From IMG/VR virus record IMGVR_UViG_3300010413_000157, positions 1-43,273 of that record: a stretch of DNA of 43,273 bases; one strand, given 5' to 3'. The stretch comes from a virus. How positions within the stretch are numbered: position 1 is the first letter of the stretch; every line of letters starts with the position of its first letter. Below the pieces are notes generated by a model that saw only the letters and a list, made by a program, of their open reading frames with translations, was not told the DNA's origin and did not search any database. Positions 1-43,273 of this stretch are shown here, piece by piece. A program made the position numbers and the translations under genes.

Positions 1-144
1 CTTGGCGCACAGGAGCTGGCCAGCAACATCGGGCAGGCCAACCTCTCCTCTGCCCTGCAGACACAGCAACTGGCCGGACAATTGGGAACCTCTCAGGCGC
101 AGCTCGGTATGGAGGCACAGCAGCTCGCCAGCACCCTCGGCCTG
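1..144. repeat. Left copy of 144-bp terminal direct repeat
   Basis: Bases 1-144 are identical to bases 43130-43273. The two copies join one gene in the same reading frame across the ends. This is what a circularly permuted genome, or an assembly overlap of a circular contig, looks like. It does not prove that the virion DNA has a 144-bp physical terminal repeat, because the repeat lies inside a coding sequence rather than between operons. Confidence 0.95.
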
Positions 145-8976: not shown

Positions 8977-9318
8977 CTACTCGAACAGGTAGCGGCTGTC
9001 GAACTGCATCTGGAACCCGAATGCGTCATAGGATGGCTCATCGGCCCCCGCAAGGCAGGAGTGGTGGTGAGCGCTGGCCATGAGGGCAAAACCCTTGTGG
9101 CGGTACACAGGGAGCTTCACAGCCTGATTCCCGACATAGTCATTCGGGTCTTGGCAGAAGAAAATCCCATTGGCCGTGCTCGCCTTCTCAACACCCCACT
9201 CAAGGATCGGATAACCAAACCATTCATCGGCGCTGGCCTTCTGGACGGTCAGGGTACAGGCCACCGGCATCACGATGATCATAAATGCCAGCAGCAGCAA
9301 CATCTTCTCAAATCTCAT
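8977..9318 (-). CDS. Small secreted or membrane-anchored protein of unknown function
   Basis: The true start is the ATG ending at 9318, preceded on the minus strand by GAGGAG; the frame is open upstream but without coding character. The 113-residue product begins MRFEKM with a hydrophobic core 'LLLLAFMIIVMPVACTL', a signal peptide or anchor, possibly a lipoprotein signal at VACT. The mature part has two further Cys and a His-rich AHHHSC segment. It is the promoter-distal gene of the early operon and overlaps the radical SAM gene by 11 bp. An envelope role such as superinfection exclusion is possible, but nothing in the sequence proves it. Confidence 0.65.
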   Translation of the reverse strand: MRFEKMLLLLAFMIIVMPVACTLTVQKASADEWFGYPILEWGVEKASTANGIFFCQDPNDYVGNQAVKLPVYRHKGFALMASAHHHSCLAGADEPSYDAFGFQMQFDSRYLFE

Positions 9319-9874
9319 GTCTCCACTCCTCATAGTTCGCGTGGAATTCCCCATCCTGAAGCTCCAGCAGGTCTTCACCAATAGGCACCGGACACTCACC
9401 CTCCAATAGCATTGGCCCCATCTCAACCCTAGTCCAACGGTCGGGGATAATCGGGATGACCCTCTCCTTGATACCCGTATCCACGTACAGTCGATAGCTC
9501 TCCTTGCGCCCCCGGATGGCTGTCTGGAAATTGAAGAACCGGCTGATGTCGTTATCATTGGCCGGGGCGTGCAGGCCCAGTGTGATGCCGTCGAACAGGT
9601 CCAGATTCTCAATGAGCCATGGCGAGGCCAAAGAGGTGTTCAGGTAAACCTTCTGCTCGACGCTCTGCATCCTGAGTTGGTGGACCAGCCAGAACAGCTT
9701 CTTGGGATACAGGAGCGGCTCGCCCCCGGTAATGATGACCTTTTCGTACCACGCCAAATCAGCCACCTTGGTGGCCTTCACATCCTTCATGGTGGAGTGA
9801 TGGTGGTTGCAGCAGTCCTTGCATTCCCTGTGACAGTGGTAGGTGATAACCAGTCTTGCCTTCTTGTTCCCCAC
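9308..9874 (-). CDS. Orphan radical SAM enzyme
   Basis: A 188-residue protein starting at GTG (9872-9874), preceded by GAGGAGGAG at good spacing. This start places the cluster motif C14-x3-C18-x2-C21 near the N-terminus, as usual for the family. The SAM-binding 'ITGGEPLLYP' follows at about residue 50. The protein is short for a radical SAM enzyme, so only a partial TIM barrel and no auxiliary cluster domain are expected. An extra Cys22 and CNHHH follow the motif. Its fold class resembles QueE or activase-type enzymes, but no other queuosine or ribonucleotide reductase gene is present. The substrate is unknown. Confidence 0.85.
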   Translation of the reverse strand: MGNKKARLVITYHCHRECKDCCNHHHSTMKDVKATKVADLAWYEKVIITGGEPLLYPKKLFWLVHQLRMQSVEQKVYLNTSLASPWLIENLDLFDGITLGLHAPANDNDISRFFNFQTAIRGRKESYRLYVDTGIKERVIPIIPDRWTRVEMGPMLLEGECPVPIGEDLLELQDGEFHANYEEWRHEI

Positions 9875-9887
9875 GTCATGCTCCTCC

Positions 9888-10178
9888 TCATTTCTGCACT
9901 GTGTCTGTTCTCTTATAGCCCTCGAAAGATGGGAACCGTCCACCCCCAAGAGTCGTCGTAAAACGCTGAAGCTCCTCCTCTGATGACCATACACAATCAA
10001 GTCTCTCCCGATAGATGTAGCATAGTGAGCCCTCATTGAACTCAAGCACCCTCAGCTCGCGTGATTTGACAATAGCCTCCCTGCAGGTCACATCCTGATC
10101 GCGTATAAAGATAACAGCGACTGACGCGAACGTGACTGCAAGGAGCACTAGGTAGGCAAAGGCCAGCTTGGCCAGCAT
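9888..10178 (-). CDS. Small single-pass membrane protein, unknown
   Basis: The start ATG at 10178 overlaps the upstream stop (TGATG). The 96-residue product has one N-terminal transmembrane helix ('AFAYLVLLAVTFASVAVIFI', about residues 6-26). About 70 polar residues follow, with three Cys near 30, 53 and 62 that could form disulfides outside the cytoplasm. It ends 13 bases before the radical SAM start. Family not recognised. Confidence 0.6.
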   Translation of the reverse strand: MLAKLAFAYLVLLAVTFASVAVIFIRDQDVTCREAIVKSRELRVLEFNEGSLCYIYRERLDCVWSSEEELQRFTTTLGGGRFPSFEGYKRTDTVQK

Positions 10179-20115: not shown

Positions 20116-20577
20116 ATGAACATGACAAAAGAGCAGGCAGACCTTGCCCGCAAGGAGACCATCAACTACATCGACTTCTACCCGGAGGAGATGGCGGGCA
20201 AGCTGGTGGCCCGATTCGTCGAGGAGATGAAGGCCATGCCTGATGTCTGGCAGAAGCTCTCCGAGGCGCAGCAGGAGGAGGTGCTCAGTCGCACCCGCAT
20301 GTTTGCCGAGGACTGGACCATCCAGATGGTTGAGGTAACCGTGGCAGACGAGCGTCCCCAGCTACACGCCATTCTCGATCAGGTGGTGGTGAAGGATGGT
20401 ATCAAGGCCGTGCTTACCATGCCCAAGCAGAGCGAGGACCGCCACGAGCTGATGGATGCACAGGGCAAGGATGTGCTCATCGTCATCATCGACTCCAAGG
20501 CATACACCGGAGGGACCGGCAAGGTGAAGGCGGAGAAGGACCAGAAAGACCTGAGTCTGGCGGAGCCCGGTGACTGA
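20116..20577 (+). CDS. Hypothetical protein
   Basis: The product has 153 residues. The N-terminal half is helical ('FYPEEMAGKLVARFVEEM') and the C-terminal half is strand-rich ('LHAILDQVVVKDGIKAVL', then VLIVIIDSKAY). It ends in a charged tail. I do not recognise the family. The stop overlaps the start of the sugar-gene cluster. Confidence 0.65.
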   Translation: MNMTKEQADLARKETINYIDFYPEEMAGKLVARFVEEMKAMPDVWQKLSEAQQEEVLSRTRMFAEDWTIQMVEVTVADERPQLHAILDQVVVKDGIKAVLTMPKQSEDRHELMDAQGKDVLIVIIDSKAYTGGTGKVKAEKDQKDLSLAEPGD

Positions 20578-20966
20578 TGGGCAAGGTCACCAAGCCGTGG
20601 GGCGGCTATGAAGTCCTGATGCACGGGCCAAAATACTGGATCAAGGTGCTGACGGTAGCCCCGGGGTGCATGCTCTCTCTGCAGAAACACCAGCATCGCC
20701 ATGAGGCGTGGACGGTGGTAATGGGTGAGGGCATCGCTGAGATTCACGACTGGCCAAAGACACTGAAGAACGGGGACAAGCGATACATCATGCCCGGTGA
20801 CAGGGTGGACATCCCGTGTGGTGCCAAGCACCGCCTGTCCAACCCGACCGATAAATACCTTATCGTTTGTGAGGTTGCCATTGGTGATGACGTGAGGGAG
20901 GACGACATCATCCGTTATGCCGACGAGTACGGCAGGAAGGTGGAGAGTGAGGACAGTAGCAGTTAG
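20577..20966 (+). CDS. Phosphomannose isomerase-type cupin
   Basis: The protein has 129 residues. 'VTKPWGGYEVL' near the N-terminus, 'LSLQKHQHRHEAWTVVMGEG' and 'PGDRVDIPCGAKHRLSNP' are the marks of the cupin domain of type II mannose-6-phosphate isomerase/GDP-mannose pyrophosphorylase (metal-binding His-x-His...Glu). Here the isomerase domain stands alone without the guanylyltransferase. It would interconvert fructose-6-P and mannose-6-P or a related hexose phosphate. It is followed by nucleotidyltransferase and phosphomannomutase genes. Confidence 0.8.
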   Translation: MGKVTKPWGGYEVLMHGPKYWIKVLTVAPGCMLSLQKHQHRHEAWTVVMGEGIAEIHDWPKTLKNGDKRYIMPGDRVDIPCGAKHRLSNPTDKYLIVCEVAIGDDVREDDIIRYADEYGRKVESEDSSS

Positions 20967-21384
20967 TGGCGGCTTTGACCCGGTTCACGTGGGTCATGTC
21001 CGCATGTTTAAAGAGGCCCGCAAGCTGGGTGACCGGCTGGTGGTCTTCCTGAACTCCGACGAGTGGCTCGAGCGCAAGAAGGGCTACTGCTTCATGAAGT
21101 ACGCGGAGCGGGCGGAGATCATCCGCGCCTTTCGTGCTGTCGACCACGTCATCAAGGCCAATGACGACGATGATACCGTCATCCAAGACCTTGCCGAGTG
21201 GACGCCGTCGGTATTCGTCAACTCCGGTGACCGGCCCATCAATACCCTGCCAGAGGCATCCATATGCCACGAGCTGAACATCGCGCTTATCTACCTTGAT
21301 GTTGGGGCTGCACACGCACACAGCAGCGACATCATCAAGGAGGCATGCACAAAGATGAGGGGGCCACATGTCAGGCCATCATGA
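20947..21384 (+). CDS. Nucleotidyltransferase, cytidylyltransferase/HldE-C type
   Basis: The protein has 145 residues. The GTG at 20947 is preceded by GGAAGG and places the motif at the N-terminus: SGGFDPVHVGH, with the H14-x-G-H17 catalytic signature, then 'DRLVVFLNSDEWLERKKG'. This is the compact fold of glycerol-3-phosphate cytidylyltransferases and of the HldE C-terminal domain, which load CMP or AMP onto a sugar or polyol phosphate. It overlaps the cupin gene by 20 bp and the mutase gene by 17 bp. The substrate cannot be told from sequence. Confidence 0.85.
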   Translation: MRTVAVSGGFDPVHVGHVRMFKEARKLGDRLVVFLNSDEWLERKKGYCFMKYAERAEIIRAFRAVDHVIKANDDDDTVIQDLAEWTPSVFVNSGDRPINTLPEASICHELNIALIYLDVGAAHAHSSDIIKEACTKMRGPHVRPS

Positions 21385-22096
21385 GCTGCTCCTGTTCGAT
21401 GTGGACGGCACCATCACCAAGAGCGCCATGCCCATCGCCAACTCCATGGCTGAGGCGCTGGCTGGACAGCCTCACACCCTCGGCTTCATCACCGGGACCG
21501 ACCACGGTGCGCTGATACACATGCTTGACCTGCTGCTGGAAATCCGGCCAACAGTGTTTCTCCTGCCCGAGATGGGCTCTGCCTGCTATCAAGGTCAGAA
21601 CATGGTGTACGATGCCGTGCCACCCATGAACCCGGATACCTTCGATATACTCCGGGCCGCCTTCACTGCTGAGCTATACAAAATCGGGCTCCCATCTGTG
21701 GCACCAGACGTGTTCCTTAAGCGCAGGGCGCAGATGACCGTCTCCATTATCGGCAGGAGCGCACCGCTTGAGATGAAGGAGAGGGTCGACCCCAACTGTG
21801 CCATCCGTCACAAGCTCTGCCATGCCGTGGCTGACACGCTGTATAAGATGGGCAGGCCCCGCGTCTACTTCACCATGGGCGGGACCAGCAGCATCGACAT
21901 CATGGAGACCTCGTGGGACAAGCGTGACGGGGTGCTGCGCTTCCTCAACTTCATGGGCTTCGAACCAAAGGACGCGCTGTACTTTGGTGACCGCCTGAAG
22001 CCGGGCGGAAACGACTGGCCGGTCACACACACCGGGGTGGAGTACATCCAAGTGGAAGGCCCACTGGAGACGTATCAGAGGATCAGGAGGGGATAA
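21368..22096 (+). CDS. HAD-family phosphomannomutase-like protein
   Basis: The protein has 242 residues. The HAD nucleophile motif is D11-V-D13-G-T-I-T and the late acidic loop is 'YFGDRLKPGGNDWPV' (about 205-219), as in the eukaryotic-type phosphomannomutase family (PMM/COF-like HAD). A cap segment lies between. It would convert mannose-6-P to mannose-1-P, following the cupin step. Such PMM genes are rare in phages. The ATG at 21368 follows GAGGGGG. Confidence 0.8.
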   Translation: MSGHHELLLFDVDGTITKSAMPIANSMAEALAGQPHTLGFITGTDHGALIHMLDLLLEIRPTVFLLPEMGSACYQGQNMVYDAVPPMNPDTFDILRAAFTAELYKIGLPSVAPDVFLKRRAQMTVSIIGRSAPLEMKERVDPNCAIRHKLCHAVADTLYKMGRPRVYFTMGGTSSIDIMETSWDKRDGVLRFLNFMGFEPKDALYFGDRLKPGGNDWPVTHTGVEYIQVEGPLETYQRIRRG

Positions 22097-22452
22097 TGAT
22101 AGACCGCGTGGATGTGCTGTTGTGGCGCTGGGCACAGGCCACGCACACAGAGATAGCTGGCATGGGATACCCGAGCAAGACTATTGAGTACCGCATACAG
22201 CGAGAGGGAACCCTTATCAGGGGCACGCCACAATCGACCACCCCCAGCTTCAGGATTGACCACGAGGTGATGGAGGTCGACCGTGCCGTCAAGGAGATGA
22301 GGCTGCGGTGGCGAGAGGTGGTAAGGGCTCGCTACTTGGCAGGGATGGGTGACAAGCAGGGTGCGGAGTATCTGAAGTTGAGCCCGGGAACATTCCGGCG
22401 CGACCTTGACCTCGCCCATGCTTGGCTTGGTGGGCGACTTGGTATCCCATAG
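22096..22452 (+). CDS. Antitermination Q-like late regulator
   Basis: The product has 118 residues. The ATG overlaps the previous TAA and has AGGAGGGG upstream. The C-terminal half ('VDRAVKEMRLRWREVVRARY', then 'GDKQGAEYLKLSPGTFRRDL') is a sigma-region-4-like helix-turn-helix as found in phage Q, ArpU and related late regulators. It lies at the end of the nin-like region just before a candidate late promoter and terminator, exactly where Q acts in lambdoid phages. Confidence 0.65.
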   Translation: MIDRVDVLLWRWAQATHTEIAGMGYPSKTIEYRIQREGTLIRGTPQSTTPSFRIDHEVMEVDRAVKEMRLRWREVVRARYLAGMGDKQGAEYLKLSPGTFRRDLDLAHAWLGGRLGIP

Positions 22453-29134: not shown

Positions 29135-30214
29135 ATGGCTGACACAGTCTATGGCGTGAACGCTCCCGAGGCGGTCAAACTGTGGTCTCGCAAGCTAATG
29201 CGTGAGGCACTGAAACAGACTTGGGCATCCCGCTTTATGGGTAAGGACTCAAATAGTCTGTGTCAGGTGCTTGACGACACCAGCAAGGGCCCCGGTGACC
29301 GCATTCGTGTGACTTTACGCATGCAACTCAGCGGTGACGGTGTACAGGGTGATGCCACCCTCGAGGGCAACGAAGAAAAGCTCGTTACCCACACCGATAA
29401 CCTTTTCATTGATCAGCTCCGTCATGCTGTCCGCTCCGGCGGTAAGATGACCGAGCAGCGCATCCCGTTCTCTGTTCGTGAAGAAGCCCGCATGGGTCTT
29501 CAGGACTGGTGGGCTGACCGCTTCGACACTTGGTTTATGTACCAGCTTGCTGGCTACTCCGATGAAACGGATACCCGTTACACCGGTAACCAAGCCGCCT
29601 TGGCACCAACCACCAACCACATCATGTTCCCGAACGGGCACACCACCGAGGCGTCTCTGACTGCCACCGCTTCTGCCATCTTCAGCCTCGGGCTGATTGA
29701 CGCTGTAGCTCTGAAAGCTCGCACACTGAGCCCGATGATCCGCAAGGTCAACGCTGGCAAGGCAGGCATGAAGTACGTCATGTTCATCACCCCGGAGCAG
29801 CACTATGACCTCCGTCGTAACACCAACACCCTACAGTGGGGCGACATCCAGAAGGCGGCCATGCAAGGCGGCCAAATCTCTGGTAACCCGATCTTCACTG
29901 GTGCGCTTGGTGAGTACAACGGTGTCGTACTGCACGAGGCCTTCCGCCTCCCGGTACTGGACTCTACCGGTGGTTCCAAGATCGGGCGTGCTGTGCTCGC
30001 TGGGGCACAGGCTGCGGCGCTGGCCTTTGGCCGCGGCTTCTCTCGTAACCGCATGGAGTGGACTGAAGAGCTGTTTGATTACAAGAACAGTCTCGGTGTC
30101 GAGGCAGGCTGTATCGCTGGCCTGAAAAAAGCCCAGTTCAACAGCGCAGACTACGGCACCATCGTGGTCTCCACTGCCCACTCCACTGACGCAGTCAATG
30201 CGTCTGGCCGCTAA
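29135..30214 (+). CDS. Major capsid protein, N4-gp56/DUF4043-like
   Basis: The product has 359 residues. 'WSRKLMREALKQTWASRFMG' near the N-terminus, 'KGPGDRIRVTLRMQLSGDGV', the extended middle 'EEARMGLQDWWADRFD' and 'YVMFITPEQHYDLR' follow the N4-gp56-type capsid family, an HK97-fold group used by many podoviruses. The codon use is less GC-biased here than in neighbours, as is common for highly expressed capsid genes. A structured leader precedes it. Confidence 0.9.
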   Translation: MADTVYGVNAPEAVKLWSRKLMREALKQTWASRFMGKDSNSLCQVLDDTSKGPGDRIRVTLRMQLSGDGVQGDATLEGNEEKLVTHTDNLFIDQLRHAVRSGGKMTEQRIPFSVREEARMGLQDWWADRFDTWFMYQLAGYSDETDTRYTGNQAALAPTTNHIMFPNGHTTEASLTATASAIFSLGLIDAVALKARTLSPMIRKVNAGKAGMKYVMFITPEQHYDLRRNTNTLQWGDIQKAAMQGGQISGNPIFTGALGEYNGVVLHEAFRLPVLDSTGGSKIGRAVLAGAQAAALAFGRGFSRNRMEWTEELFDYKNSLGVEAGCIAGLKKAQFNSADYGTIVVSTAHSTDAVNASGR

Positions 30215-30228
30215 TTAGGAGGTGCGAC

Positions 30229-30663
30229 ATGGGTAACAAAGTCAATAGCCCTCTGCAGGCCAAGGGTGGTCACATTGGTGTTCAGGCTGTGGTTGCGAAC
30301 TACACCCTCAACGAGACGGCATCCGGCTCTACTACCATCGTGGTAGCGAGCATTCCGGGTGGCGGTCAAATCGTTGGCGGTTCTGTTCGCATCAACCACG
30401 CCGCCCTGAACGCCGGGGCCAACGCTGGTGCGGTTCGCATGTACGCCACCATCGGAGGTAACGAGATCGGGAACATTATCCCGACCTCTACCATCTCCTA
30501 TGTGGTCAACATGCCAGCCACCGGCAATCTGGCAGTGCTTGGTGAACGCCTCACCAGTTCTGCTAACCTTGTGGTTGAGCTTCACGACTGCGCCGGTACT
30601 GGTACTGCCAGCACCGTGTTCACCGTGATCGCTCAGTACCTTGCGGAGAAAGAACCCGACTAA
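30229..30663 (+). CDS. Head decoration or minor capsid protein
   Basis: The product has 144 residues, all beta-rich and small-residue-rich ('GSTTIVVASIPGGGQIVGGS' and 'GNLAVLGERLTSSANLVVEL'). Directly after the capsid gene with AGGAGGTGCGAC upstream. Position and composition fit a capsid-stabilising or decoration protein; family not certain. A terminator follows. Confidence 0.65.
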   Translation: MGNKVNSPLQAKGGHIGVQAVVANYTLNETASGSTTIVVASIPGGGQIVGGSVRINHAALNAGANAGAVRMYATIGGNEIGNIIPTSTISYVVNMPATGNLAVLGERLTSSANLVVELHDCAGTGTASTVFTVIAQYLAEKEPD

Positions 30664-30673
30664 TCGGGAACCC

Positions 30674-30702
30674 GGGCGGGCCTTCGGGCCCGCCCTTCTC
30701 TT
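30674..30702 (+). terminator. Terminator after the capsid genes
   Basis: GGGCGGGCC-TTCG-GGCCCGCCC, a perfect 9-bp stem with a stable UUCG loop (30674-30695), followed by TTCTCTT. The T tract is short, so it may attenuate rather than stop transcription, raising capsid mRNA over the downstream block. Confidence 0.75.
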
Positions 30703-30720
30703 ACATCTGAGAGGAGATCC

Positions 30721-32154
30721 ATGGCTAAAACGCTGGCTGAGAACTACGCCGATGTGCAAAAGCTGCACGTGGAGGCGACCGAGAAGAACGCGACCGATGC
30801 GTACCCGCTAATCTTCAATAGCTACGCTCAATTGCTGAACATGGCCCCGGAAGAACCAGCCCTGCTGTTCTCCATGGGCTCCATCTGTAAACAAATGGGC
30901 TGGAACGGCATGGCCATCAACATGCTCAAGCTGTCCGTCCAGTCAAGACCTACACCAGAGGCGTGGTGCAATCTTGGCACCGCATATCGTGCCGAGTACA
31001 TGATGGAGGAGGCCAAGGAGGCGTGGCTCAAGGCTCTCGAGCTGCGACCCGACTGCGCCGACTACTACGTCAACCTCTCCACCCTGTACATTAACGAGGG
31101 CAATCCGGCACCCGGCCTTGAGTATTCACAGAAGGCCATCGAGCTGGAACCGAACAACGCCAAGGCTCACTGGAACCGCTCTCTCATGCTGCTGGAGTCT
31201 GGCCGCTGGGAGGAGGGCTTCAACGCCTACGAGGCCGGTCTGATGACCTTCGACCGAGCCCCGCGCAACTTCGACAAGGACGGCAAGACACCCGAGTGGG
31301 AAGGTCAGGATTTGCGCGACAAGGTTGTCGTGGTCTACGGGGAGCAAGGCATCGGGGATGAGATCATGTTCGCCTCTGCACTACCCGACCTCATCGATAC
31401 CGGGGCCAAGGTCATCTACGAGTGTCACCCCCGGCTGGAGGGTGTGATGAGGCGCTCCTTCCCCGAGCTGCTGGCCATCTACCCGACCCGCAAGAAGAAC
31501 ACCATCGACTGGACCGAGAAACACCAGATTGACTACAAGGTGGCCATTGGTTCACTGTTCTACCACTTCAGGAGCAACGGGGTATTCCCGCGCAAGCCCT
31601 ATCTCATTCCTGACCCGGAGAAGGTGGCCGAGTACCGTGAATGGCTCAGGCTCTCCGGTCCCGGACCCTACATCGGCATGGGCTACGCCGGGGGCTCGAA
31701 GAAGACCAACACCAAGGCCCGCTCGCTGCAGTTAAACCCGCTCAGGCCGATTCTGGAGCAGCCTGCGACCTTCATCTCCCTGCAGTACACCCCGGAGGCC
31801 GATGACAAGTTCAAGCGGTTCAAGGATGACTCAGGCATCACCGTCCACCACTGGCCAGAGGTCGTCCGCAACTACGACTACGACGAGACCATCGCCCTCA
31901 TTGCCGCTCTCGACCTTGTCGTCATCGTCAACACCTCGGTGGTACATGTCTGTGGGGCCATCGGTAAAGACTGTTTCACCCTCACCCCGGATAGTTGCGC
32001 ATGGCGATACGCTCAGGGAGCCAATCACATGGTGATGTATGGCGACTGGGTCACCCAGATCAGAGAGGGTGGTAGTATTGAGCAAGCGATAGGAGAGGCT
32101 GCTGATGCCGTTTTCAGCTTCATCCACGAGTATCGACTGAGGGTCGCATCATGA
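30721..32154 (+). CDS. TPR-glycosyltransferase fusion (GT9-like)
   Basis: The product has 477 residues. Residues about 20-170 are tetratricopeptide-type helical repeats (for example 'AWCNLGTAYRAEYMMEEAKE'). The second part starts 'VVVVYGEQGIGDEIMFASAL' (about 201) and ends 'VIVNTSVVHVCGAIGKDCF', typical of heptosyltransferase-like GT-B proteins fused to TPRs. TPRs usually dock a protein substrate. First gene of a glycosyltransferase block; the stop overlaps the next start. Confidence 0.8.
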   Translation: MAKTLAENYADVQKLHVEATEKNATDAYPLIFNSYAQLLNMAPEEPALLFSMGSICKQMGWNGMAINMLKLSVQSRPTPEAWCNLGTAYRAEYMMEEAKEAWLKALELRPDCADYYVNLSTLYINEGNPAPGLEYSQKAIELEPNNAKAHWNRSLMLLESGRWEEGFNAYEAGLMTFDRAPRNFDKDGKTPEWEGQDLRDKVVVVYGEQGIGDEIMFASALPDLIDTGAKVIYECHPRLEGVMRRSFPELLAIYPTRKKNTIDWTEKHQIDYKVAIGSLFYHFRSNGVFPRKPYLIPDPEKVAEYREWLRLSGPGPYIGMGYAGGSKKTNTKARSLQLNPLRPILEQPATFISLQYTPEADDKFKRFKDDSGITVHHWPEVVRNYDYDETIALIAALDLVVIVNTSVVHVCGAIGKDCFTLTPDSCAWRYAQGANHMVMYGDWVTQIREGGSIEQAIGEAADAVFSFIHEYRLRVAS

Positions 32155-32774
32155 AGGCCATCATCGTGGGACACGGCCCCTCCATGCTGACCGAGAAGAT
32201 GGGACACCTCATCGACGAGTTCGACAAGGTGATACGCCTCAAACGCTGTCAGGGCACGCTACAGGAGCCTGAATACTATGGCACCAAAACCGACATCGTT
32301 GGTGGCTCGCTTACTATCGCCTCTCATCTCAGAGGGATTGGGGGCGCTCAGGAATACTGGGTCTTCCTCGATTCTCGCCACGCTGACGTCTCGCGTGAGA
32401 CTCTCGCCTCGGTTCCGTTCCTCTTTCGAGGATGCGAGGTCGTCATGGACAAAGAGCTGTGCGACTACTGGGACAAGAAATACCGTGAGCTGAGGGACAA
32501 GATGGGCGGGCCCGGCCATGCCCATACCAGCCAAGGATTCAAGGCCATCATCTATGCCTGCCACTACCTCTCCCCGGAGGAGCTGGTGCTGGTGGGCTTT
32601 GACAACGTGATGACCGGACGTTTCACGTGGAGCATCACCCGAGGCCCGGAGTGGCAGCACTACCCTGACCATCGGTGGGACGTGGAGCACGCCCTGCTGA
32701 ACCAAGTACAGGAGGAGTACCCGGACACAAAACTCGGCTGGCTCCTCCCTGACCCCCAAGTGGAGGAAGCATGA
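32151..32774 (+). CDS. Sialyltransferase-like (GT29-like) glycosyltransferase
   Basis: The product has 207 residues. The N-terminus 'KAIIVGHGPSML' followed by 'IDEFDKVIRLKRCQG' matches the sialyl-motif L style of GT29 proteins (G-x-G-P-S...ID..D.V.R.N). 'HTSQGFKAIIYACHYLSP' and 'ELVLVGFDN' resemble the later S motif. The acceptor is unknown and no sialic-acid synthesis gene is present, so the donor may differ. Coupled to both neighbours by ATGA overlaps. Confidence 0.65.
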   Translation: MKAIIVGHGPSMLTEKMGHLIDEFDKVIRLKRCQGTLQEPEYYGTKTDIVGGSLTIASHLRGIGGAQEYWVFLDSRHADVSRETLASVPFLFRGCEVVMDKELCDYWDKKYRELRDKMGGPGHAHTSQGFKAIIYACHYLSPEELVLVGFDNVMTGRFTWSITRGPEWQHYPDHRWDVEHALLNQVQEEYPDTKLGWLLPDPQVEEA

Positions 32775-34048
32775 CCGATAAGCAACCGATACGCATCGTC
32801 ACCTCGATGGACAAACACATCTTCCACGAGTACGGCAAGAAAATGATTCTGAGCACCCTTGAGCACTGGCCCGGTGAACTATGGGTCTTCTATCCCGGAG
32901 CCAAGCAGAAGCCGAACATCAAGCACAAACGCCTGAAGCTGGTGAACCTGTCCACGGTGCCCGGATTTGATGAATTCATGGCCAAGACCTCAGCCTTCCC
33001 CATCATGCAGGGGCTAATTGATGGTCATTACAACTACCGATTGAACGCCCATACATTCAGCATCAAGCCCTTTGCCCAATTCGCCGCCATGGAGGGATTC
33101 GATGGCCTGCTGTTCTGGCTGGACGCGGACACCTTCACGGTGGAGGACATCTCCGAGCACTGGCTGCGCGGACTGTTTCAGGGTCAATTCATGGTCTATC
33201 AGGGGCGACCGGAGTGGCACTGCTGCGCCTCCTTCACGGGATGGGACGCACGCCACCCACATAACATCCCCTTCTGGACCGAGTACGCCAAGATGCTGAT
33301 GTCCGGCAAGTTCCTCGCCCTGCAGGAGTGGCACGACAGCTTCTGGCTGGATGCCCTGCGCGAGGGGATGGGTATCAGCGCCCGCAACATCGCAGAAGAC
33401 CTGCCTGTAGGTGGTGGCCCGGCCAACGTGTTTGACATCGTCTTCAACGGCAAGGCGCATCACTACAAGGGCAAGAAGAAGGAAGGCCCTCAGCGTTACG
33501 CACAGCTCATTGAGCTGGTACGCAAGGTCCAACCAGAGGTGGTCATCGAGGTGGGCACATGGAACGGTGGCAGGGCGCTGGAGATGGCTCAGGTGGCCCC
33601 GGGTCTTCGCTACTACGGCTTCGACCTGTTCGAGCAGGCCACGGCGCAGACCGACGAGGAGGAGAAGAACGTCAAGCCCCACTACACGCACCAGCAGGTG
33701 CAGGAGATGCTCATCAAGGCCGGTGTGGCTGCCTCCCTGATGCCGGGCAATACCAAGGAGACCATGCCCCTGTTCCGCAAGCTCAACAAGAACGTGAAGG
33801 CGGACCTCATCTATATCGACGGTGGCCATGCGGTGGAGACCATCCGCTCCGACTACGAGAATGCCAAGCAGATGATCAAGCCCGGTGGCCTCATCGTGTT
33901 CGATGACTACTATGTCGACATGCCCGAGGAAGACCTCGAGAAGTGGGGTGCCAACAAAGTGCTGGAGCGGGAGGAGTACGAGCTGCTCCCCATCATCGAC
34001 CCGGTAAAAGGCGGAGGCGGCACCCAGCTTGCCGTGGTCCGGTGCTGA
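32771..34048 (+). CDS. Glycosyltransferase-methyltransferase fusion
   Basis: The product has 425 residues. The N-terminal half contains 'DGLLFWLDADTFTVED' with a D118-x-D120 metal/nucleotide-sugar motif, a GT-A fold. From about residue 240 a class I SAM methyltransferase follows: 'VVIEVGTWNGGRALEMAQ' (motif I near 257), 'ADLIYIDGGHAVETIRSDYE' and 'IKPGGLIVFDDYY', like the Methyltransf_24 group. A single chain could add a sugar and then O-methylate it. An unusual domain pair in a virion-gene region. Confidence 0.8.
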   Translation: MTDKQPIRIVTSMDKHIFHEYGKKMILSTLEHWPGELWVFYPGAKQKPNIKHKRLKLVNLSTVPGFDEFMAKTSAFPIMQGLIDGHYNYRLNAHTFSIKPFAQFAAMEGFDGLLFWLDADTFTVEDISEHWLRGLFQGQFMVYQGRPEWHCCASFTGWDARHPHNIPFWTEYAKMLMSGKFLALQEWHDSFWLDALREGMGISARNIAEDLPVGGGPANVFDIVFNGKAHHYKGKKKEGPQRYAQLIELVRKVQPEVVIEVGTWNGGRALEMAQVAPGLRYYGFDLFEQATAQTDEEEKNVKPHYTHQQVQEMLIKAGVAASLMPGNTKETMPLFRKLNKNVKADLIYIDGGHAVETIRSDYENAKQMIKPGGLIVFDDYYVDMPEEDLEKWGANKVLEREEYELLPIIDPVKGGGGTQLAVVRC

Positions 34049-34563
34049 TAAGCGACCGATACCGCCAGCTAAACGCCGAGCTGCACAAGGAGCTTGGCAT
34101 CTATGGATCGTCCGGTGGTGGCTGGGTCAAGGCCATCAAGCACATCGCCGGGCGCTACGAGACGGAGGACGTCCTCGACTATGGCTGTGGAAAGGGAACG
34201 CTGGCGGCACAAATGCCGTACCCGATCAAGGAATACGACCCAGCCGTAGAGGGCAAGGAAGCCCTACCCGAACCTGCGGACATCGTGGTATGCACCGACG
34301 TGCTGGAACACATCGAGCCGGAGTGTCTGGCCGAGGTGCTCGACCATATCCGCGACCTGACCAAGATACGGGCCTTCATCACCATCGCCATACGCAAGGC
34401 CAAGAAGAAACTACCGGACGGGCGTAATGCCCACCTCATTATCAAGCCCGCCGACTGGTGGCTCCTCAAGCTGACAAAACGCTTCAAGGTAGTCCACTGG
34501 GATGTGGACAACAAGAAGGGCGAGATCGTCGCCGTAGTCAAGCCTGTGAGGAGGATCCAATGA
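34042..34563 (+). CDS. Class I SAM-dependent methyltransferase
   Basis: The product has 173 residues from the GTG at 34042 (7-bp overlap with the previous stop). 'DVLDYGCGKGTLA' is motif I, with 'ADIVVCTDVLEHIEPE' as the motif II/III region of Methyltransf_23-type enzymes. Start choice is uncertain as the ribosome site is weak. It lies inside the glycosyltransferase block, so a sugar or protein acceptor is more likely than DNA. Confidence 0.8.
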   Translation: MLISDRYRQLNAELHKELGIYGSSGGGWVKAIKHIAGRYETEDVLDYGCGKGTLAAQMPYPIKEYDPAVEGKEALPEPADIVVCTDVLEHIEPECLAEVLDHIRDLTKIRAFITIAIRKAKKKLPDGRNAHLIIKPADWWLLKLTKRFKVVHWDVDNKKGEIVAVVKPVRRIQ

Positions 34564-35270
34564 CGCCGCTTAAGGTATTTATCGGTTTCGACCAAGTCGA
34601 GTCTGTCGCGTGGCACGTGATGGCACACAGCATCATGAGCCGGGCATCGGTGCCGGTGAGTATTATCCCGGTGAACCTGAACAACCTGCGGGGCCTGTAT
34701 CGTCGTTCCCGCGACCCGCGCCAGAGCAACGAGTTCAGCTTTTCGCGCTTCTTGGTTCCCTATCTGAGCGGCTACGAGGGCCTTTCTGTCTTCTTCGACT
34801 GTGACCAGATGGTGACCCGCGACATCAAGGAGTTATTCGACTTGGCGGACCCAAACAAGGCCGTACAGGTGGTGAAGCATGACTACATCCCGTCAACCAC
34901 AGAGAAGTACCTTGGCTCGGTACAGTATCAGTACCCACGCAAGAACTGGAGTTCGGTTGTTCTGTGGAACTGTGGCCATCCCCGCAACCGCGTACTGGGA
35001 CCAGACGCTGTCAATGACTGGGAGCCATCGGTTCTGCACCAGTTTAAGTGGCTGGAGGATCATGAAATCGGAGAGTTGCCGGTAGAGTGGAACTGGCTGG
35101 TGGGAGAGTATCCGCTGGGCTACAAGGGCGTAGACAAGCGTGATGTAAAGAATTGGCACTGGACTATTGGTGGGCCGTACTTCGATGAGTACAGCCACGT
35201 GGACGGCTCTGACCTGTGGTTCGAGGAGTACGCCCTGATGAAGCACTGCACGCAACGCAGCTCCCGTTAG
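34560..35270 (+). CDS. Glycosyltransferase, GT-A (GT8-like)
   Basis: The product has 236 residues; the ATG overlaps the previous TGA. 'LKVFIGFDQVESVAWHVMA' opens the protein, 'SNEFSFSRFLVPYLSGYEG' precedes the D80-C-D82 motif in 'SVFFDCDQMVTRD', the layout of GT8-like enzymes found in many phages. It ends the block, just before a terminator. Confidence 0.8.
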   Translation: MTPLKVFIGFDQVESVAWHVMAHSIMSRASVPVSIIPVNLNNLRGLYRRSRDPRQSNEFSFSRFLVPYLSGYEGLSVFFDCDQMVTRDIKELFDLADPNKAVQVVKHDYIPSTTEKYLGSVQYQYPRKNWSSVVLWNCGHPRNRVLGPDAVNDWEPSVLHQFKWLEDHEIGELPVEWNWLVGEYPLGYKGVDKRDVKNWHWTIGGPYFDEYSHVDGSDLWFEEYALMKHCTQRSSR

Positions 35271-35304
35271 CCCCCCACTAATCAAGCTCAGAAATAGTAA
35301 CAAA

Positions 35305-35336
35305 AGGCTGCCCCGGTTGGGGGGTGGCCTTTTTTT
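35305..35336 (+). terminator. Terminator closing the glycosyltransferase block
   Basis: Hairpin AGGC-CCCC-GGTT-GGGG-GCCT (35305-35330, with internal mismatches) followed by T (35330-35336). The minus strand also has a short T run past the stem. Tail genes follow within 20 bases, so they must be reached by read-through or antitermination. Confidence 0.85.
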
Positions 35337-35352
35337 GTATCTGGAGAACGGC

Positions 35353-35967
35353 ATGCCCACAGCAACCTTCAGCACTATCATCAACCGGGTACTGGATGAC
35401 CTGTTCCGGGATGACCTCACCGCACAGGCTACCACGGCGCTCCAGACGGCTATCCGTCAATATGAGAGCTATCCGTGGTGGCCGAAGGAAGAACGCGCCT
35501 ACACGACCACGGTGGACGGGCAGGAATACTACGCCCTGCCGCTCGACTTCCAGAAGATTGACACCCTGCGCATCAATGTGGGCTCCGCCGAGTATCCACT
35601 ATACCAGCGCACATGGGAGCAAATCGATCTCTGGCAGGACAGCACCTCAGCGTACACCGGGAGGCCATCGGATTTCTGTATCTTCGATGAGCAGCTCCGT
35701 CTGTACCCCATCCCGGACGGGGCCTACACCATGACCATGGGTTACAGTGCCCGCCTTGCCGATCTGGCTGCCGGTGACAACAACGCATGGACCAACCACG
35801 CCGAGGAGCTGGTGCGACGTTGTGCCGAGGCCGACATCGCCTATTCCATCCTGCGTGACGTGGAGGCGTATCAGGTATTCCGGGGCATGGAGTCAAAGGC
35901 AAAGGCCGCCGTCATCCGCGAGCACACTATGCGCGTGATGCGGGGCAAGGGAAGGAAGCGTCGATGA
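35353..35967 (+). CDS. Head-tail adaptor (P22 gp4-like)
   Basis: The product has 204 residues. The ATG at 35353 follows GGAGAACGGC; the open frame upstream lies in the terminator. 'FSTIINRVLDDLFRDD', 'AIRQYESYPWWPKEER', then 'YYALPLDFQKIDTLRI' and a late helical Arg-rich end match P22 gp4-type adaptors that bind below the portal. Confidence 0.75.
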   Translation: MPTATFSTIINRVLDDLFRDDLTAQATTALQTAIRQYESYPWWPKEERAYTTTVDGQEYYALPLDFQKIDTLRINVGSAEYPLYQRTWEQIDLWQDSTSAYTGRPSDFCIFDEQLRLYPIPDGAYTMTMGYSARLADLAAGDNNAWTNHAEELVRRCAEADIAYSILRDVEAYQVFRGMESKAKAAVIREHTMRVMRGKGRKRR

Positions 35968-36323
35968 GCTTCAAGATCTACTATGACAACGGCTCGGTCT
36001 ACGAGGGGGGTGGACTGGATGGTGCCAAGCAGGCCCCCAAGTTTGGTATTCAGGTCATCGCACAGGAAACGGACGGGGTCGGCACCGAGCTGCTGCACTA
36101 CTTCGATTACTACCTATATTTCAAGAATCTTGAAAAATGGATAGGGGTCTACGGCATCGTCCCACTAGTCGACCAAGTGGTTCACTGTGTGGATGACATC
36201 GGCGCTGTGGGTGTTGGCCGCATGATGCACTTCAATGATTTCGGGCGCATCCTCAAGCGGGCACAGGACGAGGCTGACCCGCGTAAGAGCGCCAAGCACA
36301 AGGGTGAGGAGCCCCTCGGCTAA
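35964..36323 (+). CDS. Hypothetical structural-region protein
   Basis: The product has 119 residues, coupled to the adaptor gene by ATGA. 'FKIYYDNGSVYEGGGLDGA' resembles small phage proteins with a beta-hairpin start, and the end is a charged helix. A virion role is inferred from position. Confidence 0.55.
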   Translation: MSFKIYYDNGSVYEGGGLDGAKQAPKFGIQVIAQETDGVGTELLHYFDYYLYFKNLEKWIGVYGIVPLVDQVVHCVDDIGAVGVGRMMHFNDFGRILKRAQDEADPRKSAKHKGEEPLG

Positions 36324-37975
36324 TGTCAGCACCCGTCTTTGGTGTCTGGGGATGGCGCTTTGCGAACAACACCGAAACCTCACCGTCCGCCACATCCTCG
36401 CCCTCATGGGTAAATGAGTGGGACACCACAGCCACACTGGGCTTCGTCACTAACGCAGCCTCTGGCACCTACAGGCTTCGTCTGGTGGTCTACAACGAGG
36501 CCGGTGGCAAGTCCGGGGCTCTGGCACCAATCGTACAGACCAATGTCAACGGCGGCGGCTGGAACACAGCGGGCGCATCCATTATTGGTCAGGTATACGG
36601 TGAAGGGGCCATCTACATGGGCTTCACGGCTCGGGACAATGTGCCAGAGTCATCCACCCTTACAACCTTCCTTGCCAGCGGAGCAATCACCGCCACCTAC
36701 TCCCCGGTGAATGGATTCGCCAGCGGAGACTCGGCCAAGTTACCAGCCGTGGGCCTGTCGCCCGGCACTTATTCAGAATATGACGTCGCCTTCGATATCC
36801 GTGACGGCTATGCCACGGCGGGGGATACGGTACAGATAAGGCTGGTACAGGGTGACAGCACCCTGTTCGATGTCATGTCCACGGCCACCTTCGTGGTCGC
36901 CGCCGGAGCCCCGGGAGAGGTCACCACCACACCGTCAGCCGGTCGACTCATCACCAAGGGCGGTACACCGCTTACCACCCTGTTCCAGAACCTGCACCCG
37001 ACCACGGGCTTGCTGCAAATCAGGGGAGGAACACCAAGCACACAGACCATCAACAACACGGCCCCGACTGCTGGCCGGGTCACCATTACAGGCGGCACAC
37101 CTGACACAATCGCCATCCTGCAGCGTGACACAGCACCGCTCTCCGGTCGGGTAACCATTACCGGCGGGACACCAAGCCAAGCGGTCATAAATACCCTCAC
37201 GGTGCTCTCAGGCCGCCTGACGACCACTGGCGGCACCCCGGTTACTGAGGCCCTGACCGGGGCAGAAGAGACCGCACCGCAGACCGGACGGATCACCATC
37301 ACCGGTTATGCGCCGACTCAGGAGGTTATCAACTTACTGGCTCCCTCCACCGGCAAGCTGGTGATAAAAGGCCAGACTCCGGTCACGTCCACCGGCACAG
37401 ACGTCGTCACAGCGCCCTCTACTGGCCGCGTGACTATTACCGGTGGAACGCCAGCCACCGAGGTTATCAACGACCTAGCGCCATCTCAGGGGCTTATGAC
37501 AGCGTCTGGATATGCCCCCACCCAGCAGGTCATCAACACCCTCAAGGCGCTGGCTGGACGCATCACCATAACCGGAGGCACACCGACCACCGAGGCTGTT
37601 ACCGCTGCCGTCACCACGCAGCCACAGACGGGCCGTGCCACCTTCAAGGGCTATGCCCCAACCACTTCCCTGATTGTCACCACGCGCCCGACTTCTGGCC
37701 GTGTCGTCTTCAGCGGATATGCCCCGACCACCAAGGTAGCTGTCCCCGTCGACACCTATCCGCAGACCGGGGCACTAACCATGGCAGGGAATATACCGGT
37801 TACCAGTATCGGTATCTGGCCACCAAAGTCTGACAACGGTGGCGTATGGACGGACAAATCCGCCTCATCGGATAGCTGGGCATCCAAGTCAGATGCTGGT
37901 GGGGTCTGGACGGACAAAGCAGACTCTTCGGATAGCTGGACGAAAAAGAGCGACAGCTCAACACCTTGGACATAA
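36323..37975 (+). CDS. Repetitive tail or surface protein
   Basis: The product has 550 residues. Residues 1-200 form a beta-sandwich-like head ('GVWGWRFANNTETSPSATSS', then receptor-like strands). Residues 205-495 are 13 tandem units of about 22 residues built on [S/T]GRxTITGGTP. The C-terminus has a different repeat, GGVWTDKS.SSDSW, with regularly spaced Trp. No signal or enzyme motif. Probably a rod-like extension on the tail or head. The repeats are of the small beta-type known in several phage structural proteins. Confidence 0.7.
   Translation: MSAPVFGVWGWRFANNTETSPSATSSPSWVNEWDTTATLGFVTNAASGTYRLRLVVYNEAGGKSGALAPIVQTNVNGGGWNTAGASIIGQVYGEGAIYMGFTARDNVPESSTLTTFLASGAITATYSPVNGFASGDSAKLPAVGLSPGTYSEYDVAFDIRDGYATAGDTVQIRLVQGDSTLFDVMSTATFVVAAGAPGEVTTTPSAGRLITKGGTPLTTLFQNLHPTTGLLQIRGGTPSTQTINNTAPTAGRVTITGGTPDTIAILQRDTAPLSGRVTITGGTPSQAVINTLTVLSGRLTTTGGTPVTEALTGAEETAPQTGRITITGYAPTQEVINLLAPSTGKLVIKGQTPVTSTGTDVVTAPSTGRVTITGGTPATEVINDLAPSQGLMTASGYAPTQQVINTLKALAGRITITGGTPTTEAVTAAVTTQPQTGRATFKGYAPTTSLIVTTRPTSGRVVFSGYAPTTKVAVPVDTYPQTGALTMAGNIPVTSIGIWPPKSDNGGVWTDKSASSDSWASKSDAGGVWTDKADSSDSWTKKSDSSTPWT
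36935..37808. repeat. 13 tandem protein-coding repeats of about 67 bp
   Basis: Degenerate units encoding [S/A/T]GRxTITGGTPxTxxINxLAP. Conserved Gly-Arg and Gly-x-x-Pro spacing but clearly diverged codons, so these are old repeats under selection rather than a recent slippage expansion. Confidence 0.8.
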
Positions 37976-41979: not shown

Positions 41980-43273
41980 GGGCGGAGGTGGTGAAACCAC
42001 TACGGTCCAGCAGGCTGACCCGTGGGCCGGGATTCAGCCATACCTGACCGACATCTACCGTAGGGCCCAGCAACAGTCCTACAACATACCGTCCTACTAC
42101 CCGGGGACGACAAACGCACCGCTCAATCCCATGCAGCTTGCTGGGATGGGCGGTCTGCTCGGCTATTCCGGCTATACCAGCCCGTACAGTCAGGCCGGGA
42201 TGCCAACCTATGGCTATCAGAATGTGAGTGGATCGCAAAATTATCCATCCACGATCCAATCCACACCGATCAAGCCGGGTGGCGGTGCCGATTATTTCGG
42301 CAACCTGTTTGGTGGGTCATCAGGCGGTGTGTTCGATGCCCTCAACAGATCTGTCATGGGTTACTTGAGCACCTCAGCAGGCCAAAACACTGGCTCACCA
42401 TCGGTAACCGGTGGGACTACCGAGGGAGGCACCACCCAGCCGTACACCATCAATCCATACAGCTACGGCACCTCGCTGCCGGGGCTCATCAATAACGCAC
42501 AGGGCGCATGGTATGGGGCCATCAACCCGCAGGCCTCACCGGCACAACAGATCGGGGCCGCTCTCACCCCGGAGACCTATCAGGCTATCTCCAGCGCCAT
42601 GAGCGGCATGGGCATCTCCCAGCCCGTCTACGCGCCGGAGGTAGGCGTGAACCCATATGCCCCACAGGTGAACCAGAACGTCTATACCCCGCAGATCGGC
42701 TTCAATCCGTCGACCCCGTACATGAACCAACAGGTCACCACGCCGCAAATCGGGACAACCAATGTGCCGGTCCCCATGGACTTCTACGGCCAGATGATGA
42801 GCGGACAGGTCAACCCGGACATCTACACCCCACTGGCAGAAGCAGCCACCCAGCGCATGATCGACCCCTTCCTGCAGCAGGTGCTTCCCGCCATCCGTGA
42901 CGAAGGCATCATGACCGGAGCCTATGGCGGCTCACGTCAGGACTTGGCCACCATCGGGGCGACCGACACCCTGCAGCAGAATATCGCGGACATGCTGACC
43001 AACATGTACGGTGGTGCCTACACCGCAGCGTCCCAGCAACAGACCGAGGGTGCCCGCCTTGCCACCGAGGCAGGACTGGGTATCGGCCAACTTGGCAGCA
43101 CCCAGAACATTGAGCAGGCCCGGCTTGGTCTTGGCGCACAGGAGCTGGCCAGCAACATCGGGCAGGCCAACCTCTCCTCTGCCCTGCAGACACAGCAACT
43201 GGCCGGACAATTGGGAACCTCTCAGGCGCAGCTCGGTATGGAGGCACAGCAGCTCGCCAGCACCCTCGGCCTG
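41972..43273 (+). CDS. Internal/ejection virion protein, N-terminal part (continues at 1-696)
   Basis: The ATG at 41972 has TTAGGAGGCGACT upstream and overlaps the previous gene by 8 bp. The frame stays open for 434 codons to the end and continues in frame from base 145, so the joined product has 617 residues. It starts 'MSKGGGGETTTVQQADPWAG', then is Gly/Pro/Tyr/Gln-rich and probably disordered to about 290. From about 300 it is helical: 'QRMIDPFLQQVLPAIRDEG', then 'GAYGGSRQDLATIGATDTLQ' and long Gln/Ala-rich helices into the terminal repeat. First of three predicted internal or ejection proteins. Confidence 0.8.
   Translation, partial: MSKGGGGETTTVQQADPWAGIQPYLTDIYRRAQQQSYNIPSYYPGTTNAPLNPMQLAGMGGLLGYSGYTSPYSQAGMPTYGYQNVSGSQNYPSTIQSTPIKPGGGADYFGNLFGGSSGGVFDALNRSVMGYLSTSAGQNTGSPSVTGGTTEGGTTQPYTINPYSYGTSLPGLINNAQGAWYGAINPQASPAQQIGAALTPETYQAISSAMSGMGISQPVYAPEVGVNPYAPQVNQNVYTPQIGFNPSTPYMNQQVTTPQIGTTNVPVPMDFYGQMMSGQVNPDIYTPLAEAATQRMIDPFLQQVLPAIRDEGIMTGAYGGSRQDLATIGATDTLQQNIADMLTNMYGGAYTAASQQQTEGARLATEAGLGIGQLGSTQNIEQARLGLGAQELASNIGQANLSSALQTQQLAGQLGTSQAQLGMEAQQLASTLGL
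43130..43273. repeat. Right copy of 144-bp terminal direct repeat
   Basis: Identical to bases 1-144; see the left copy. Allows the contig to be closed into a circle of 43,129 bp with one uninterrupted gene over the junction. Confidence 0.95.

Follow-up and report, generated by a model that had tools for sequence, protein, structure and literature searches.

There are only a few systems so far in which the phage virion has been shown to be glycosylated. In the mycobacteriophage Che8 and its relatives, glycosyltransferases (GTs) encoded by the phage place glycans covalently on capsid and tail-tube proteins (Freeman 2023, cited in PMC11256854 and PMC12619734). Protein O-glycosylation is also the work of OGT and SPINDLY (GT41), in which an N-terminal superhelix of tetratricopeptide repeats (TPRs) is fused to a GT-B domain, and Maf proteins have TPR acceptor domains as well (PMC13317340). 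Here, we analysed the virus record IMGVR_UViG_3300010413_000157 (43,273 bases, the whole of which is called the window below) and a block of five overlapping plus-strand genes within it (30721-35270), which lies between two strong terminator-like hairpins and encodes a TPR-fused GT (TPR-GT), a GT29-like protein, a GT-A/methyltransferase fusion, a lone methyltransferase and a GT8-like protein. We regard it as probable that this block is a virion-glycosylation cassette that acts on a virion protein, capsid or cement being the most likely, and that the glycans are capped and methylated.

The main argument for this reading is the position of the cassette. When viral loci were collected with the TPR-GT as bait, a major capsid protein (MCP) gene lay no more than 3.5 kb upstream in 53 of the 59 loci with enough upstream sequence, and these MCPs belonged to Phage_capsid_3 (45 loci) or to SU10_MCP (8 loci), an unrelated capsid family in whose phages the same capsid-side site is kept. 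Related genes also stand next to head genes in Tetraselmis viridis virus S20, which has another capsid type, and, as a methyltransferase only, in Roseobacter phage CRP-9 (both described below). Because the site recurs across capsid types, the substrate would be part of the particle. The cassette is found at one site in dozens of distantly related, mostly uncultured phages. In the window, the genes for terminase, portal, a scaffold-like protein, the MCP (Phage_capsid_3) and a cement-like protein precede the block, and an SU10-type adaptor gene follows it. The initial annotation had described five coupled genes between two terminators, placed between capsid and tail genes, and both the open reading frame (ORF) layout, with three ATGA overlaps and one 7-nt overlap at the junctions, and the folding of the hairpins confirmed this. 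Its proposal of late, virion-linked glycosylation is likewise supported, as phages of two MCP families have the cassette linked to their capsid genes and its TPR-GT is SPINDLY/OGT-like.

The history of the site was followed in viral contigs fetched by MCP similarity, keeping distinct MCPs with a visible MCP-adaptor site and adding the window and catalogued relatives (n = 65); the contigs were the best matches to the window MCP, so the sample leans to close relatives. The cassette occupied the site in 37 of these phages, the adaptor came soon after the MCP in 27, and fibre-like ORFs stood there in one. Relatives without exactly this block, for which the initial annotation had proposed to look, thus exist (27 of the 65), and the natural presence or absence of the block at one site offers a ready comparison. 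The catalogued phages Mae-JY35, KLEP18-1 and RHph_Y1_10 have the site without the TPR-GT, methyltransferase and GT8-like genes and carry other small ORFs instead. On the MCP tree, six changes of cassette state are needed versus 21 in shuffles, and well-supported branches force at least two; because of this difference, the cassette is old and stably inherited with the capsid genes. The divergence of the enzymes tracks that of the MCP, and the GC and GC3 of the block match those of the portal and tail genes. A recent foreign import (moron) was ruled out by the matching GC and GC3, the few changes on the MCP tree and the distances that track the MCP. Since dN/dS of the cassette genes was mostly 0.04-0.3, reaching 0.55 in one pair (pairs with unsaturated dS), the enzymes are maintained under purifying selection. 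Gene content, conserved catalytic motifs, capsid-side position, old co-inheritance and purifying selection can all be read directly here. At the same site, Gly/Ser-rich fibre-like ORFs replace the cassette in two contigs (L191:8517-10146 and L189:7347-8982), and the MCP-adaptor site is a possible hot spot for genes of the virion surface.

The core of the cassette consists of the TPR-GT, the methyltransferase and the GT8-like gene, whereas the GT29-like gene and the fusion gene are confined to one clade on the MCP tree. The cassettes of other phages of the group encode radical S-adenosylmethionine (SAM)/SPASM proteins, FkbM-type or other methyltransferases, or a GDP-mannose dehydratase-like protein. 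The window has a radical SAM protein away from the block (9308-10045, minus strand; PF04055 E 3e-5, HxsC-like 3e-6). The composition of the core bears on the idea that the core methyltransferase acts directly on the capsid protein, with glycosylation as an accessory function apart from it. Roseobacter phage CRP-9 would fit this, as a methyltransferase of the same family as the lone one of the window follows directly after its coat gene with no GT beside it; however, the methyltransferase lies between the TPR-GT and GT8-like genes in most relatives, and a GT8-methyltransferase pair recurs in Caulobacter jumbo phages, so we consider direct capsid methylation very unlikely.

The structure model of the TPR-GT (pLDDT 94.7) has TPR helices at about residues 5-175, followed by a GT-B domain, and its best PDB matches by Foldseek were SPINDLY (E 5e-13) and then OGT (E 3e-10). 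According to this model, the protein most resembles the TPR protein O-glycosyltransferases SPINDLY and OGT, and it is plausible, by analogy with OGT, SPINDLY and Maf-1, that the TPRs hold the acceptor. An architecture of this kind points to protein acceptors and thus away from DNA hypermodification, in which the GTs would glycosylate modified bases of the phage DNA. DNA-hypermodifying GTs have been described in phages (Pyle 2024, cited in PMC12619734), but a base-hydroxylating or hydroxymethylase gene was not found among the window proteins scanned, and enzymes for replicating DNA would be expected early rather than after the capsid genes; we therefore hold this possibility to be extremely improbable.

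The GT29-like protein of the window alone matched PF00777 with E 0.003 and 17.4 bits (family cutoff 23 bits), and all nine members of its family matched this model, the best with E 8e-7. A match to the ST3Gal1 profile was also obtained (E 0.01). Sialylmotifs L, S and VS are the defining signatures of sialyltransferases, and the family has an L-like pattern (VGHGPS..G..ID..D.VIR.K..P..YG..T), an S-like pattern (S.G..A...L.L.GFDN) and a VS-type H-x4-E in which H174 and E179 are invariant. No CMP-sialic acid donor pathway for this protein was recognised in the window. The DAD motif of the GT-A/methyltransferase fusion was invariant in 40 sequences, and its methyltransferase domain matched Methyltransf_24 (E 9e-15) and RMNT_CmcI (E 3e-6), while the lone methyltransferase matched Methyltransf_23 (E 7e-8). 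The GT8-like protein scored below the cutoff of PF01501 (E 0.0016, 18.5 bits; cutoff 24.3), and its DxD motif (DCD; D81 and D83) was invariant in 121 of 121 homologues.

The initial annotation had these enzymes supplied with sugars by genes of the middle operon, and this did not hold up. The genes in question (20577-22096) encode a mannose-6-phosphate-isomerase-like cupin, an RfaE-II-like nucleotidyltransferase and a phosphomannomutase-like HAD protein. Among 23 records searched, some of them fragments, the nucleotidyltransferase was present in one and none had the phosphomannomutase-like protein, although 18 of these records carry the TPR-GT. Because the two tested genes are nearly absent where the TPR-GT is present, the cassette is independent of them and a general donor link was ruled out; in the window phage itself, they might still help the cassette. 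This result also bears on the alternative that the enzymes modify host surface glycans (lipopolysaccharide or capsule) late in infection and thereby alter receptors, so that released progeny avoid re-adsorbing to debris or infected cells. GTs with sugar methyltransferases are typical of O-antigen modification, RMNT_CmcI, matched by the fusion, is a sugar O-methyltransferase family, and the window does have separate sugar-nucleotide-type genes. However, inheritance of the cassette does not go along with that of the nucleotidyltransferase and phosphomannomutase-like genes, the genes of serotype-converting phages are usually membrane-bound gtr clusters, the TPR-fused GT here resembles protein glycosyltransferases, and the capsid-side site is kept across two MCP families. 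We thus consider modification of host glycans unlikely.

In bacterial genomes, relatives of the TPR-GT are grouped in arrays, which in some cases include GT8-like and methyltransferase genes. Several of these relatives have a flagellin, FliD or pilin gene no more than 8 kb away, a count taken without a background rate for such neighbours. Flagellin, FliD and pilin are typical acceptors of bacterial protein glycosylation, and this neighbourhood is supportive of protein glycosylation, though not a test of it. It would also suit a system whose targets are proteins of the host, for example its flagellin or type IV pilin receptors, instead of virion proteins, since the nearest bacterial TPR-GTs lie near just these genes. 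The late position between capsid and adaptor genes fits virion proteins better, and both the stable inheritance with the MCP and the replacement of the cassette by fibre-like ORFs speak against host proteins, which makes this option quite improbable. Two contigs of metagenome-assembled genomes (MAGs) assigned to Thiotrichaceae and Nitrospiraceae (L237 and L239) carry the phage cassette with capsid genes; these are possible host hints, or MAG contamination. In six other phage contigs (L029, L030, L034 and L039-L041), TPR-GT, GT1-like and GT8-like genes were found with no recognised capsid gene nearby, and in L030 an Mtd_N-type tail-fibre gene lies downstream.

The AlphaFold model of the cement-like protein is all-beta (pLDDT 74.5), and its best Foldseek matches were Ralstonia phage GP4 capsid chain J (E 4e-4), Pam1 capsid chain H and the KHP40 cement protein; on the strength of this model, the protein is the nearest candidate acceptor, as a lead only. 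Another lead only is the C-terminal tail of the MCP. Every MCP of the GT29 clade has a C-terminal extension of the VSTAHSxxAxxASGR type, several residues longer than in other MCPs, which was found only in this clade (window 30130-30214; loci L011, L012, L013, L015, L090, L098, L103 and L164). In mycobacteriophages, the glycans sit on the C-termini of capsid and tail-tube proteins (Freeman 2023, cited in PMC12619734). Ser/Thr enrichment of the cement protein or MCP as an acceptor signal was ruled out, as no difference was found. Further downstream, the window encodes a 550-residue Thr/Gly-rich repeat protein (36323-37975; TxGRxTITGGTPxT-type units) without family matches, a possible fibre or glycan acceptor.

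Several results weigh against virion glycosylation as we read it. The global TM-scores of the TPR-GT to OGT and SPINDLY are low (0.3-0.42), and it gave no match to the Pfam GT41 model (Glyco_transf_41, PF13844) at E 0.1, a model that does match bacterial GT41 proteins neighbouring TPR-GT relatives; no GT9 family model in Pfam or NCBIfam was matched either, and a GT9 annotation is found only on some viral structure neighbours. Because of these low scores and missing family matches, the protein is regarded as OGT/SPINDLY-like in its action but is not placed in GT41. The family labels of the initial annotation accordingly stand in part: the TPRs are clear and the enzyme signatures are real and conserved, but "GT9" lacks a Pfam or NCBIfam match and the GT8 and GT29 Pfam scores of the window proteins fall below cutoff. 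The match between MCP tail and GT29 is perfect but comes from a single clade, that is, one evolutionary event. The cement family goes with the cassette (35 of 37 versus 7 of 27), but only two independent pairs are well supported; neither this correlation nor that of the MCP tail is backed by more than one or two independent events. In Ser/Thr content, cassette-bearing and cassette-free phages did not differ at the first ORF after the MCP (cement; p 0.15), and their MCP tails looked similar. The capsid, cement and fibre proteins are candidate acceptors only. Virion operons can also carry host-acting genes, and no experimental work on any cassette-bearing relative was found in the literature searched.

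The features of the locus are collected in the table below. The first and last 144 bases of the window (1-144 and 43130-43273) are identical and an open frame runs across the joint; for these reasons, the record probably represents a complete genome, circularised or terminally redundant, with a length of about 43,129 bases. No DNA-level homology of the window to catalogued phages was detected.

Table. Coordinates of the cassette and its neighbours in the window
Feature	Position	Strand	Evidence and remarks
Major capsid protein (MCP, Phage_capsid_3)	29135..30214	+	Pfam PF13252 E 7e-69, phrog_334 E 1e-82; fixed upstream neighbour
Capsid cement (decoration)-like protein, candidate acceptor	30229..30663	+	Structure model and Foldseek
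Terminator-like hairpin, capsid/cement genes versus cassette	30674..30695	+	Folding z -4.8
TPR (aa 5-175) fused to GT-B glycosyltransferase (aa 200-477)	30721..32154	+	TPR_8 E 2e-14; model; Foldseek
GT29-like (sialyltransferase-like) protein	32151..32774	+	PF00777 in relatives; sialylmotif patterns
GT-A (aa 1-228, DAD motif) fused to SAM methyltransferase (aa 229-425, Methyltransf_24/CmcI-like)	32771..34048	+	
SAM methyltransferase (Methyltransf_23, phrog_24759), core gene	34042..34563	+	GTG start
GT8-like GT-A glycosyltransferase, core gene	34560..35270	+	phrog_28018 E 1e-48
Terminator-like hairpin 3' of cassette	35302..35333	+	Folding z -3.8
Head-tail adaptor (SU10-adaptor family)	35353..35967	+	PF24175 E 3e-21; fixed downstream neighbour

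The two hairpins are the strongest by paired bases and GC pairs within 25-43 kb, and none of 200 shuffles folded as well as either, although the T tail of the first is weak (TTCTCTTACA). A terminator-like hairpin between the capsid/cement genes and the cassette was found in 43 of 83 cassette loci versus 3.3 expected from shuffles, and at the corresponding place in 4 of 27 cassette-free phages; the shuffles keep base composition only, the loci are counted without kinship correction and the cassette-free stretches are shorter. A hairpin 3' of the cassette is uncommon in relatives (4 of 58). The natural reading of the hairpin after the cement gene is an attenuator that allows much MCP and cement and less enzyme. 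The region at 25-43 kb yielded a single sigma-70-like promoter, which is fewer than in shuffles, and because this promoter lies elsewhere (42.3 kb, minus strand), expression of the block probably depends on read-through. A small sigma-70 region-4/ECF-like protein (22096-22452) might drive late promoters.

The virion-protein acceptor, the order of the enzymes, the sugars and the benefit are what we infer, and they could fit together as follows. During late expression, the TPR-GT would use its TPR arm to recognise a structural protein of the phage and would add the first sugar to it, and the GT8-like GT-A enzyme would lengthen the glycan. In the clade of the window phage, the GT-A/methyltransferase fusion and the GT29-like enzyme would add further sugars and a cap, for which the GT29-like enzyme may use a CMP-activated acid sugar, and the methyltransferase would methylate the glycan or the protein. 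The donor sugars would come mainly from the host, and the terminator after the cement gene would hold the enzymes below MCP and cement levels. The resulting glycan coat may alter adsorption, stability or recognition. In its fullest form, which we put forward only tentatively and consider somewhat less likely than not, this would be a dedicated viral system for protein glycosylation of the OGT/SPINDLY kind, which a large uncultured podovirus group inherits together with its capsid and which is also placed at this site in phages with an unrelated capsid; it would build a methylated, possibly acid-sugar-capped coat on the capsid (cement, or the clade-specific MCP tail). If this is true, a whole environmental podovirus group and SU10-type phages would sugar-coat their particles by means of a compact TPR-GT cassette, phages would have a counterpart of OGT and SPINDLY, particle chemistry would be predictable from sequence, and the role of capsid sugars in stability, particle adhesion and adsorption could be tested.

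Virion glycosylation itself is known from mycobacteriophages, whereas the TPR-GT cassette beside capsid genes, and how widely it occurs, appear to be undescribed, as no report of it was found in the literature searched on virion or capsid glycosylation and on phage TPR glycosyltransferases. Podovirus ctDrO704 (MW202512, Manatee Spring) has syntenic TPR-GT (37%), methyltransferase (45%) and GT8-like (48%) genes between capsid and adaptor, but an HNH endonuclease stands where the window has the GT29 and fusion genes, and its annotation is automatic only. In Tetraselmis viridis virus S20, a cluster of sialyltransferase, GT and methyltransferase genes separates the head genes from those for head closure, and its methyltransferase is homologous; however, S20 is a siphovirus with another capsid set, in which no homologous TPR-GT or GT8 was detected. 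Bacterial flagellin and pilin glycosylation islands have homologous TPR-GTs beside flagellin, FliD and pilin genes, whereas the window cassette adjoins phage capsid genes and its acceptors would be virion proteins. With OGT and SPINDLY, its best structural matches, the window TPR-GT shares the N-terminal TPRs fused to a GT-B domain, but it differs from them in its lack of a Pfam GT41 match, its low global TM-scores and a TPR part of only about 175 aa. With the mycobacteriophages, the likeness lies in phage-encoded glycosyltransferases, for which virion modification has been demonstrated there and is proposed here; the arrangement differs, since in the siphovirus Maravista, a Che8 relative, the GT genes are near the 3' end of the genome, whereas here the TPR-GT/methyltransferase/GT8 cassette is fixed between the capsid/cement genes and the adaptor.

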